Shown here one piece after another: positions 26,687-33,759 of a DNA stretch of 64,000 nt. The position numbers were made by a program, and so were the translations under genes. Numbering within the stretch: the stretch's first letter is position 1; every line of letters begins with the position of its first letter. Source of the stretch: Clostridiaceae bacterium (GTDB lineage Bacteria; Bacillota; Clostridia; Acetivibrionales; DULL01); NCBI GenBank assembly GCA_012840395.1, contig DULL01000017.1, positions 1 through 64,000 of the forward strand. The letters run 5' to 3'. The notes under the pieces were generated by a model that made no database searches, was not told the DNA's origin, and saw only the letters and a list, made by a program, of their open reading frames with translations.

Positions 26687-26711
26687 GGAGAAGGCTGTTT
26701 CAGCCTTCTCC
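26687..26711 (-). terminator. Terminator of the lipoprotein gene
   Basis: Perfect 11-base arms GGAGAAGGCTG (26687-26697) and CAGCCTTCTCC (26701-26711) with a three-base loop. Read on the minus strand, it is followed by TTTTAT. It overlaps the stop codon of the minus-strand gene and could also stop folD transcription. Confidence 0.8.
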
Positions 26712-27824
26712 ACCACCACTTTTTCCACCGCTTTTTCCTTCGCCGCTACTTTCTCCTCCGCCTCCAGTCTGGTTCGTACTGCCCTTCGGTTGATTTTTAA
26801 CAGCTTCTTCAAGGGCGTCAACATTTGAAAGAGCAACCCTGGATTTTATATCAATCAACTGAACATTCCTTTCATTTACTACCTTCTCAAGCTCATAGAT
26901 GGAAAAATCCAGCTTACTGGCAGGTTCTTGAACTTCATTATTTATAGTATTCTTATACAGAGACCAGGATGATTTAAGGCTTTTAACATTTAAATCACAT
27001 TTTTCCCAATCTCCGGTAACCGCGCTTAGAGCTGAATTCCTAATGAAGTATCTAACTCTTTTTATTTCGGGGGAATTCTGCTCCTTATACAGCATATAAA
27101 AATCTGGCAGATAGCCATATAAATGATTTGCAGATAACAATGTATTTTGAGTATTTTTCTCTTTTGCGCTGGTTGTTAAATTATTCAGTGCTTTGCCAAA
27201 ACTATCTATCAGCGAGCTGTTTGCACCGGATTTGACTGCCTTTGGCGTATAACTACTCCAGTCATAATGCAGCTTATCTATAGTACTGGATATTTTTTGC
27301 CAAGGATCTTTTTGACCGGCTTTCTCATCTTCTTTTTTCTCAGCTCCACCTTTATCTTGGACTTCCTGGTTTTTATTTTCATCAGATTTGCTTTTTTCGT
27401 CCTGTTTCTTCTTATCTTCTTCTTTTTGTTCAGAAGATTCTTCACTCTTGCCTTTTTCTATATCATCTGAATCAGATTGATTTTTTTCAGACTCAGTTTC
27501 TTCTTGCTGATCTGTTTCCTTTTTGGATTCAGTTTCTTTTTTGCTCTGTCCGGATTTTTCTCCTCCTTCTTTTTCATCCTCTTTCTTAGACTTAGCCGGA
27601 CCTCCTAATTCGCTGATAATTTCTTCAATGCTTTCTTCGATATCCTCTAATTCATCAGGTACTTTTTGTAAATCTATATTTTCTTCTGCAGATTGTTTTT
27701 GAATTTCAGGACTATTTTGGCCTTGTCCACTTTTATTGCACCCAGTTATAAAAAAAGCAACAACAAGGCATAAGCAGAATGCTGAGTTTAATATTTTCAA
27801 TTTGGCAGATTTTCTCATAAGCAT
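26700..27824 (-). CDS. Lipoprotein with charged low-complexity linker
   Basis: Function unknown. The 374-residue product starts with a signal peptide ending in the lipobox FITGC (C29), so it should be lipid-anchored outside the cell. Residues about 45-175 are a low-complexity linker rich in E, K, S, D and Q. A compact region (about 180-350), mainly helical, follows, and the tail is glycine-rich. I use ATG 27824, placed six bases after GGAGG. A TTG at 27830 is too close to that site. It is convergent with folD. Confidence 0.82.
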   Translation of the reverse strand: MLMRKSAKLKILNSAFCLCLVVAFFITGCNKSGQGQNSPEIQKQSAEENIDLQKVPDELEDIEESIEEIISELGGPAKSKKEDEKEGGEKSGQSKKETESKKETDQQEETESEKNQSDSDDIEKGKSEESSEQKEEDKKKQDEKSKSDENKNQEVQDKGGAEKKEDEKAGQKDPWQKISSTIDKLHYDWSSYTPKAVKSGANSSLIDSFGKALNNLTTSAKEKNTQNTLLSANHLYGYLPDFYMLYKEQNSPEIKRVRYFIRNSALSAVTGDWEKCDLNVKSLKSSWSLYKNTINNEVQEPASKLDFSIYELEKVVNERNVQLIDIKSRVALSNVDALEEAVKNQPKGSTNQTGGGGESSGEGKSGGKSGGGEG

Positions 27825-28026
27825 ATTCAACCTCCATATTTATTATTATTCAATTAACGATAAAAATACCTCAACCTCTATTTACCAGGTTATAAAAACG
27901 GTAAATATTACATAAAGGAGAAATTGAATTTATGTCAAATATTGATATTTGGAATTTAAATTGATATTAAAAAACAATGTAAAAAGATACTTTTTATTTA
28001 TTTTACTAATTAGGGAGGTTATTAAA

Positions 28027-28305
28027 ATGTCAATAACAGTTAATTTATGTTCAGAAAAAAAAGGTGAATTAAAAAATTTCCTTGAGAAATACTTTAATCA
28101 TGAAGTTTCAATAGATGAAGATGTGAATACATGGATATATGTGTATAAAAAACCATTGGAAGCTATTGATATTATCAGCGCAGTAATTGATAATAATCAC
28201 AAATATAGTATCACTGTAGGTATTGATATGGGGAACAGTATTTATATGGTTTCTCCGGAAAACCATGACGGAGTTATAAAGGATTTTTATAATTTATTTT
28301 ATTAA
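28027..28305 (+). CDS. Small hypothetical protein
   Basis: A 92-residue soluble protein with no family I recognise. It has an alternating alpha/beta look (SITVNLCSEKKGELKNFLE, NTWIYVYKKPLEAIDIISAV, SITVGIDMGNSIYMVSPENH), consistent with a small ferredoxin-like fold, and no membrane segment or cysteine cluster. ATG 28027 follows AGGGAGG. The frame is open back to 27949 without a ribosome site. It stands alone between the lipoprotein and the nitroreductase. Confidence 0.7.
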   Translation: MSITVNLCSEKKGELKNFLEKYFNHEVSIDEDVNTWIYVYKKPLEAIDIISAVIDNNHKYSITVGIDMGNSIYMVSPENHDGVIKDFYNLFY

Positions 28306-29500: not shown

Positions 29501-30961
29501 TTGGAAATACATGAATATACAGCACATGAATTAAGTAAGATGTTGAAAAACAAAGAAATTAAAGTAAAAGAGCTGACTGAATCTGTATTAAATAGAATTG
29601 ACAATATTGATAAGGAGTTAGGAAGTTTTATTACTATTTGCAGGGAGGAAGCCCTAAAAAAGTCAGTGGAAGTTCAGCACAAAATTGATAATAGGCAGGC
29701 TACATCACCTTTAGCAGGAATTCCTATGTTGCTGAGTGATAATATTTGTACCAGAGAAATACTTACTACATGTTCCTCTAAAATGTTACATAACTTTGTT
29801 CCTCCATATGGCGCCACTGTTGCTAATAAATTAGATAGCCAGGGTTCTGTCTTAATCGGTAAGGGAAATATAGATGAATTTGGTATAGGTGGGACCACTG
29901 AAACCTCATATTATAAGACTACTAAAAATCCATGGAACCTGGAAAAATTGGCAGGTGGTTCTTGCGGAGGCGCAGCTTCTGCAGTTGCTTCAGGAGAAGT
30001 TGTTTTTTCTCTGGGTTCTGATACAGGAGGTTCTATCAGGCAGCCATCATCTTTTTGTGGTGTGGTTGGAATGAAACCGACCTACGGAGCCGTATCCAGA
30101 TTTGGCGTAATACCATTCGCTTCATCATTTGATCAGGTAGGGCCGGTAACAAAAGATGTTGAAGATTGTGCCCTTGTATTAAATGCAATTACAGGCCATG
30201 ATCCTCTTGATTCTACCTCAGTTAATAAAGATTATCCTGACTTTACAAAGGCTTTGGAGCAGGATATTAAAGGTTTGAAAATTGGAATTCCAAAAGAGTG
30301 GGTTGAAACAAAAATAGATCCTGACGTCAAAAAATCTTTTTATGACTCCGTTAAAGTACTGGAAGAATTGGGCGCGGTATGTGAGTACTTTTCTTTTTCA
30401 TTAACTGACTATATTGCACCTACATACTATATTCTTACTTCAGCAGAAGTGAGTTCTAATCTTGCAAGGTTTGATGGTATAAAATACGGATACCGGGCAG
30501 AAAAATTTTCTGATCTGCAGGAGTTATATAAGAAAACAAGAGCAGAGGGTTTTGGTGAAGAAGCAAAGAGACGAATTCTTTTAGGCACATATGTACTCAG
30601 TTCAGGTTGTTATGAGAAATATTTCAAAAAGGCCCTTAAAGTCAGAACAATGATATGTGAAGAGTTTAATAAAGCTTTCGATAAATATAATCTCATTATT
30701 TCACCAACGACACCCAGAACTGCCTATTCATTGGGAGAAATGAATAAAGACTTCCTGTCTATGTGCCAGGATGATGTTTATACAGCTTCAGCTAATATTG
30801 CCGGACTGCCTGCAATATCAATTCCCTGCGGCTTTGGCAGCAATAATATACCTTTTGGACTGCAATTTATTGGTAAGCAATTTGATGATTTCACTTTAAT
30901 CAAAGCAGCCTATAATTTTGAACAAAATACCGAATACCATAAGAAAAGACCAAGTTTATAA
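29501..30961 (+). CDS. gatA: GatA-type amidase subunit with catalytic Lys replaced by Ser
   Basis: The glutaminase subunit of GatCAB. The 486-residue length and the amidase signature are normal, and S154 (cis-Ser, AGGSCGG) and S178 (nucleophile, TGGSIRQP) are kept. The third triad member, Lys79 in the canonical (A/G)IPxxxKDN motif, is Ser here (GIPMLLSDNI, codon AGT 29735-29737). The signature GGSSGGS is also changed to GGSCGGA. The reading frame is intact. Either this copy has lost glutaminase activity, or the chemistry is altered. TTG 29501 follows AGGAGG by seven bases. Confidence 0.9.
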   Translation: MEIHEYTAHELSKMLKNKEIKVKELTESVLNRIDNIDKELGSFITICREEALKKSVEVQHKIDNRQATSPLAGIPMLLSDNICTREILTTCSSKMLHNFVPPYGATVANKLDSQGSVLIGKGNIDEFGIGGTTETSYYKTTKNPWNLEKLAGGSCGGAASAVASGEVVFSLGSDTGGSIRQPSSFCGVVGMKPTYGAVSRFGVIPFASSFDQVGPVTKDVEDCALVLNAITGHDPLDSTSVNKDYPDFTKALEQDIKGLKIGIPKEWVETKIDPDVKKSFYDSVKVLEELGAVCEYFSFSLTDYIAPTYYILTSAEVSSNLARFDGIKYGYRAEKFSDLQELYKKTRAEGFGEEAKRRILLGTYVLSSGCYEKYFKKALKVRTMICEEFNKAFDKYNLIISPTTPRTAYSLGEMNKDFLSMCQDDVYTASANIAGLPAISIPCGFGSNNIPFGLQFIGKQFDDFTLIKAAYNFEQNTEYHKKRPSL

Positions 30962-30993
30962 ACATAACCGGCTAACAGAACGAGGTGAAAATA

Positions 30994-32424
30994 ATGGAAT
31001 ATGAAGTAGTTATTGGACTTGAAGTTCATGCGGAGCTTTCAACAAAATCAAAATTATATTGTTCTTGTACAACCGAGTTTGGAGGAGAACCAAATACCCA
31101 TTGTTGTCCTATATGTATGGGAATGCCCGGAACTCTTCCGGTGCTTAATAAAAAAGCTGTAGAATATGCTGTACGGGCAGGGCTTGCTACTAACTGCACG
31201 ATATCAGAATATAGCAGAAAGGACAGAAAGAACTATTTTTACCCTGATCTTCCAAAAGCATATCAAAATTCCCAGTACTATTACCCCATATGTAAAAATG
31301 GCTATATAGAGATAGAAACCGAAAATGGTTCAAAACGGATTGGAATAACAAGAATACATATAGAAGAAGACGCAGGCAAACTATTGCATGATGAATGGGG
31401 AACAGGTACATTGGTTGACTGCAACAGAGGAGGAGTTCCTCTGATTGAAATTGTAAGCGAGCCTGATATGAGGTCTGCTGAAGAGGCAAGAGCTTATCTC
31501 GAAAATCTTAAAGCAATTCTTCAATATATAGGAGTATCAGATTGCAAAATGCAGGAAGGCTCTCTCAGGGCTGATGTAAATCTTTCCGTCAGACGTAAAG
31601 GCGATACAAAATTTGGAGTCAGAACGGAAATGAAAAATCTTAATTCATTTAAGGCCATAACCAGAGCCATAGAAAGCGAAGCAAAAAGGCATATTTATGA
31701 AATCGAATCAGGTGGTACCCTGGTTCAGGAAACGAGAAGATGGGACGATGAAAAAGGATTAAGCTTTTCAATGCGAAATAAGGAAGAAGCAAAAGATTAC
31801 AGGTATTTTCCTGATCCTGATCTTCCACCGGTAGTTTTATCAAAAGAGTGGATAGAGGAAATAATGAGGTCTCTTCCAGAATTACCTGAAGCAAGGAGAA
31901 AAAGATATATTGCAGAATATTCTCTTCCTGAATATGATGCTTCCCTGATAACTAAATCTAAAGCACTTGCAGACTTTTTTGAAGAAGCTGTCGCGTTATG
32001 CAATAACCCCAAATCAGTGAGCAATTGGATTATGGGAGATATTTTAAGAAAGATGAAGGATGAAGAACAAGAGACAGAAGAAATACCAATTCCGGCACAA
32101 TATCTGGCTGACCTTATAATTCTGGTGGATAAAGGAGTTATTAGTAATACCATCGCTAAGAAGGTATTTAATAAAATGTATGAAACTAAAAAGGATCCAA
32201 AGGTTATTGTAAAAGAAGAAGGACTTGAAGTTGTAAATGATGAAAGTGCACTGATAGAAATTGTAAAAAAAGTAATAGAAAAGAATCCTCAATCTGTAGC
32301 AGATTTTAAGAGCGGGAAAGAAAAGGCATTTGGATTCCTTGTAGGCCAAGCCATGAAAGAAACTAAAGGAAAGGCAAATCCACAGCTTATTAACAAACTG
32401 CTCAGAGAAGAGCTTTCAAGGTAG
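30994..32424 (+). CDS. gatB: Asp-tRNA(Asn)/Glu-tRNA(Gln) amidotransferase subunit B
   Basis: The kinase/tRNA-binding subunit that phosphorylates the Glu or Asp on mischarged tRNA and amidates it. The 476 residues begin YEVVIGLEVHAELSTKSKLY. The cysteines of the zinc-containing GatB type are present (CSC ... CCPIC). DRKNYFYPDLPKAYQ, HIEEDAGK and PLIEIVSEPDM are intact. The C-terminal tail domain ends in NKLLREEL. ATG 30994 is six bases after GAGGTG; GTG 30985 overlaps the site. A terminator follows at 32479. Confidence 0.95.
   Translation: MEYEVVIGLEVHAELSTKSKLYCSCTTEFGGEPNTHCCPICMGMPGTLPVLNKKAVEYAVRAGLATNCTISEYSRKDRKNYFYPDLPKAYQNSQYYYPICKNGYIEIETENGSKRIGITRIHIEEDAGKLLHDEWGTGTLVDCNRGGVPLIEIVSEPDMRSAEEARAYLENLKAILQYIGVSDCKMQEGSLRADVNLSVRRKGDTKFGVRTEMKNLNSFKAITRAIESEAKRHIYEIESGGTLVQETRRWDDEKGLSFSMRNKEEAKDYRYFPDPDLPPVVLSKEWIEEIMRSLPELPEARRKRYIAEYSLPEYDASLITKSKALADFFEEAVALCNNPKSVSNWIMGDILRKMKDEEQETEEIPIPAQYLADLIILVDKGVISNTIAKKVFNKMYETKKDPKVIVKEEGLEVVNDESALIEIVKKVIEKNPQSVADFKSGKEKAFGFLVGQAMKETKGKANPQLINKLLREELSR

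Positions 32425-32739: not shown

Positions 32740-33759
<1,020 letters not shown>

Follow-up and report, generated by a model that had tools for sequence, protein, structure and literature searches.

Loss of the catalytic lysine from GatA in a retained gatCAB operon of a Clostridia genome, and recurrence of degraded GatA amidase sites in the order

In current descriptions, GatCAB draws its nitrogen from glutamine, GatA supplying ammonia through a tunnel. NH4Cl acts as amide donor for GatFAB in vitro (PMC4027206). In organisms without AsnRS, synthesis of Asn-tRNA(Asn) through transamidation is an established pathway, and where tested, the GatCABs of Bdellovibrio, Deinococcus and Thermus amidate Asp-tRNA(Asn), their role being in Asn synthesis (PMC4206432). 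Among other glutamine-dependent enzymes, CPS1 keeps an inactive glutaminase domain, with the catalytic Cys replaced by Ser in human, and takes external ammonia as donor (PMC4655335). Searches of the open-access literature, with most subscription papers lying outside their reach, turned up no description of a GatCAB whose glutaminase is naturally dead. Here, a gatCAB operon with a degraded GatA was analysed in a window of 64,000 nucleotides of a Clostridiaceae genome (GCA_012840395.1, contig DULL01000017.1), and compared with GatCABs of 58 genomes of the order.

The operon, hereafter copy 1, has the general organisation of a canonical gatCAB (Table 1). The gatA product gives a full-length match to the GatA family model above its curated cut-off, its partners gatC and gatB are both present, and an AGGAGG lies just 5' of the TTG start, overlapping the gatC stop. 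As read from the translation, GatB retains the motifs IGLEVHAEL, RIHIEEDAGK, EIVSEPD and RADVNLSV, and its Mg/ATP and tRNA-activation site is intact. The gatCAB operon is also found 5' of pta in two other genomes of the order, G005 and G006, and on the strength of this common gene order copy 1 is taken to be the native gatCAB, inherited vertically.

Table 1. Features of the copy 1 gatCAB locus and of neighbouring frames (positions in the window).
Feature	Position	Strand	Remarks
376-aa lipoprotein-like ORF	26700..27830	-	Long Lys/Glu/Ser-rich stretch, Gly-rich C terminus; no Pfam match
118-aa ORF	27949..28305	+	No match in NCBIfam or Pfam
gatC (copy 1), 95 aa	29202..29489	+	TIGR00135, 89.6 bits (cut-off 47.1)
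gatA (copy 1), 486 aa, TTG start, degraded amidase site	29501..30961	+	TIGR00132, 597.9 bits (cut-off 481.1)
gatA codon 79, AGT: Ser79 replacing catalytic Lys (GIPMLLSDNI)	29735..29737	+	
gatA TCT TGC: cis-Ser154 (kept) and Cys155	29960..29965	+	Ser155 in 129 of 130 canonical GatAs
gatA TCT: nucleophile Ser178, kept, within DTGGSIRQ	30032..30034	+	
gatB (copy 1), transamidase-site motifs intact	30985..32424	+	1 of 110 near-invariant positions changed
pta, downstream neighbour of copy 1 gatCAB	32767..33759	+	

Residue 79 of the window GatA aligns without gaps to the triad Lys of the S. aureus GatA structure (2df4/2g5h). Lys79, Ser154 and Ser178 are each present in all 130 canonical GatAs of the comparison set, which comprised about 50 sequences from the order together with 80 named loci that belong mostly to other bacterial groups, were the best matches to the query and carry Lys in every case. 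The Ser-cisSer-Lys triad of the window copy is thus incomplete (K79S, with S154 and S178 present), and its amidase signature reads AGGSCGGAAS where PGGSSGGSAA is expected, with GGSCGGA in the place of the GGSSGGS core. Overall, 13 of 106 near-invariant positions are changed (K79S, A128G, M129I, S155C, A205P, A317V, V355A, D372E, Y375F, D397N, P418F, Y422C and E463D), versus a median of 0 and a maximum of 5 in canonical GatAs. The glutamine site, as defined in PMC4027206 (cis-Ser154, Ser178, Arg358 and Asp425), is fully kept. The window GatA is, by family score, a GatA homologue that lacks the complete catalytic triad of GatA glutaminases, and the loss of Lys79 is real and well beyond chance. 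Whereas the residue loss is seen in the sequence, it is from this loss that we infer that glutaminase chemistry has disappeared. The first-pass annotation of this DNA had already read codon 79 as a lost lysine, with both serines remaining, a drifted signature, and the frame and the gatC and gatB partners intact, and all these observations hold.

That annotation had also raised the option of a second, active gatCAB elsewhere, and had proposed a search for another gatA with Lys79. Indeed, the genome contains exactly one further gatA. It belongs to a complete gatC-gatA-gatB operon on contig C30 (copy 2), and its product displays an intact KDN (GVPVAIKDN) and the signature PGGSSGGSAAA. Contamination as the origin of this operon was considered and rejected: C30 agrees with the rest of the genome in GC content (0.34-0.35), tetranucleotide composition (r 0.966) and codon GC3, and it carries core genes, which makes a foreign contig unlikely. 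GatA1 and GatA2 are 46% identical and copy 2 groups with G052 (support 0.98 for GatA and 0.62 for GatB). As copy 1 is the native one by its position next to pta, copy 2 would be a divergent, possibly acquired gatCAB.

The search for aminoacyl-tRNA synthetases proposed in the first reading revealed GlnRS but no AsnRS. The genome also encodes one AspRS and an AsnB with N-terminal Met-Cys-Gly, and both AsnRS and AsnA were absent. Thus, the organism must form Asn-tRNA(Asn) through transamidation. Judging from the genes present, glutamine-dependent amidation of Asp-tRNA(Asn) is most likely carried out by the C30 copy, and a copy 2 able to perform Asn transamidation would relieve copy 1 of the glutamine-dependent task. 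An attempt to deduce AspRS specificity from residue 31 was abandoned, since Leu at this position also occurs in G011, without AsnRS, and is therefore not diagnostic here.

Degraded GatAs were not confined to the window genome. Four more were found in the order: in G005 (K79A, S155N, T175M, G176D, D425Y), G006 (K79A, S155N), G012 (K79E, S154P, S155C, T175M, G176D, D425N, with loss of the cis-Ser) and as a second copy in G045, designated G045_b, which keeps K79 but has lost the cis-Ser (G153V, S154L, S155C). At position 79, whose conservation among relatives the first-pass annotation had suggested checking, canonical GatAs have Lys throughout and the other degraded copies carry Ala, Glu or Lys. 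Across the degraded copies, 9 to 29 of the 106 near-invariant GatA positions are changed, whereas the GatBs beside all five show only 1 to 4 changes in 110 (0 to 8 in canonical genomes), and no frameshift or stop was detected in gatA or gatB of any degraded copy. Losses were counted on the GatB tree, built, like the GatA tree, with FastTree. In this tree, G005 and G006 group with G008 (0.999), G012 with G011 (0.997) and G045_b with G047_a (0.92), each of these degraded lineages lying beside a live sister, which indicates at least four independent losses, the window included. As the loss has recurred in three or more further lineages of the order, it is not special to the window genome. A class-wide survey of 393 genomes covered the higher-scoring gatA genes, and the frequency of degraded copies is therefore given for the order alone. 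A grouping of G012 with G045_b in the GatA tree (support 0.2) was taken as long-branch attraction.

AsnRS, GlnRS and AsnA are all present in G005, G006 and G012, and a single gatA and gatB are found in G005, a closed genome, and in G012. G006 has a second gatAB (L197, on G006:C93), located on a contig of GC 0.63 versus 0.34 for the contig of the native gatCAB, and this contig is probably a contaminant or foreign. In most genomes of the order, GatCAB coexists with AsnRS, GlnRS and an Asn synthetase, and this is so for copies with intact GatA too. Other arrangements were observed in the comparison. In G014 (L131/L184, G014:C1:1865500-1872500), a second, divergent AspRS with an RDHGG motif adjoins a divergent type-2 gatCAB, which suggests a dedicated Asn-tRNA transamidation operon, and AspRS/AsnRS-like genes adjoin gatCAB in G034, G039 and relatives. 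In the one-contig, 6.9 Mb genome G029, the sole gatB is read in two overlapping frames with two matches (G029:C1:371270-372690), suggesting a frameshift or a sequencing error.

Selection after the loss was measured in the G005/G006 pair, the window lineage having no close relative for the same test. Both GatAs share K79A, S155N, G172A, G190A, D211E, A128S and R357K, and hence the loss is older than their split. Between the two genomes, gatA has stayed open over a dS of about 0.6, with a dN/dS of 0.16 (bootstrap 0.12-0.22), about twice the values of canonical pairs (0.067-0.075), whereas the GatB value of 0.078 (0.05-0.11) equals those of canonical pairs (0.070-0.078). As the GatA value was accumulated after K79A was fixed, the dead GatA is still selected in G005 and G006. 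On a fixed topology, the terminal branch of GatA is 1.8-2.3 times as long as that of GatB in all five degraded copies, against a median ratio of 1.1 among 23 canonical copies (one-sided Mann-Whitney p = 0.001, indicative only, as the sequences are related). The doubled rate and the raised dN/dS indicate some relaxation of constraint on GatA. By dN/dS in this pair, however, the dead subunit remains under selection, and GatB is under full selection. Copy 1 does not look like a pseudogene or a decaying operon, as its frames are open and GatB is fully constrained, GatA alone being partly relaxed. The earlier view that the locus is not simple decay is sustained by the conserved GatB and by the low dN/dS of the related dead pair, but has to be tempered, since the GatA/GatB rate is about doubled and some relaxation is real.

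Taken together, the reading we favour, although we regard its chances as evenly balanced, is that copy 1 is a glutaminase-dead GatCAB, retained as a transamidase that relies on GatA as scaffold and on free ammonia for nitrogen. In this model, copy 1 would be the native GatCAB of the lineage, with a GatA devoid of glutaminase chemistry, and copy 2 would cover the glutamine-dependent amidation of Asp-tRNA(Asn). GatB1 would still phosphorylate and amidate misacylated tRNA, GatA1 would stay as an obligatory scaffold and tunnel wall, and free ammonia would be the nitrogen source. The distribution of damage, at 13 of 106 near-invariant positions in GatA but at 1 of 110 in GatB, counts in favour of this reading, as do the second canonical gatCAB, the parallel losses, the purifying selection on gatA after the loss in G005 and G006, the acceptance of NH4Cl by GatFAB and the precedent of CPS1. 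Against it, constraint on GatA is partly relaxed, and G005, G006 and G012 hold AsnRS, GlnRS and AsnA, so that their need for an ammonia-fed enzyme is not obvious. An ammonia-fed complex and one using another donor, both options of the first-pass annotation, cannot be separated by sequence. The extension of the favoured reading to a recurrent class of ammonia-only GatCABs in this order, with at least four losses of the GatA triad, GatB under full selection and a position in translation comparable to that of CPS1, is put forward more tentatively, its probability being somewhat below even.

The main rival is slow decay of a redundant operon, in which gatA1 drifts, gatB1 will follow and the complex currently serves no function. 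For bacteria that have both synthetases and an Asn synthetase, it has been suggested that GatCAB is vestigial (PMC4206432), and each degraded GatA sits where glutamine-dependent function is redundant, either through a second canonical copy (the window genome and G045) or through AsnRS, GlnRS and AsnA (G005, G006 and G012). The doubled GatA/GatB rate ratio also fits this explanation. Nevertheless, decay accounts for the tolerated loss but not for a constrained GatB and an open GatA: gatB constraint equals that of canonical genomes (1-4 changes in 110; dN/dS 0.078), degraded copies are free of frameshifts and stops in either gene, and neutral drift over the dS separating G005 and G006 would have given a gatA dN/dS of about 1 and many stops instead of 0.16 and an open frame. 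We therefore consider decay a serious but rather unlikely explanation. It is still less probable that GatB1 works in a mixed assembly, with GatA2 or in a transamidosome, or that the complex moonlights in a structural or regulatory role such as tRNA binding or AspRS stabilisation, with no amidation through GatA1. Two GatA/GatB pairs do coexist in the window genome and GatB1 is intact, but the low identity between GatA1 and GatA2 makes partner exchange doubtful, and mixed assembly cannot be general when G005 and G012 have single genes and the second copy of G006 lies on a contaminant-like contig.

Two further alternatives concern the lysine itself. GatA1 could still be a glutaminase if another residue or a water network replaced the role of Lys79, as might be imagined from the kept cis-Ser154, Ser178, Arg358 and Asp425. 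However, this is very improbable in view of the invariance of Lys79 in the comparison set and of the accompanying changes at A128, M129, S155, P418 and Y422; moreover, the parallel copies have lost the cis-Ser, Gly176 (beside the nucleophile loop) or Asp425, where the same compensation is impossible. Although the assembly is a draft in 119 contigs, the chance that Ser79 is an assembly or sequencing artefact is close to negligible: the change from AAA or AAG to AGT takes two base changes, so that a single read error cannot explain it, and it is accompanied by 12 further near-invariant changes in a frame open over 486 codons.

If the favoured reading is true, a selected GatCAB without glutaminase would have evolved repeatedly, glutamine coupling would be dispensable in some cells, and these complexes would offer a natural system for probing roles of GatA beyond ammonia production. 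As regards annotation, current family models name such gatA genes active glutaminases, and the window copy passes the cut-off.

Compared with the canonical GatCABs of S. aureus (2g5h), A. aeolicus (3h0l) and P. aeruginosa (4wj3), copy 1 has the same three subunits, the gatC-gatA-gatB operon, the length and the family, and shares the cis-Ser, the nucleophile and an intact GatB site, but it differs in Lys79, now Ser, in Ser155, now Cys, and in 11 other near-invariant positions of GatA. Retention of GatCAB beside AsnRS and GlnRS in G005, G006 and G012 recalls Bdellovibrio, Deinococcus and Thermus (PMC4206432), although, unlike these bacteria, the three genomes have a degraded GatA together with AsnA. 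CPS1 is likewise a synthetase of glutamine-dependent type whose glutaminase part has lost a catalytic residue and yet is retained; however, its glutaminase (Cys-His-Glu triad) and chemistry are unrelated, and its use of ammonia is established, whereas for copy 1 it is proposed. If such use is true, GatCAB would join the known ammonia-specific amidotransferases.
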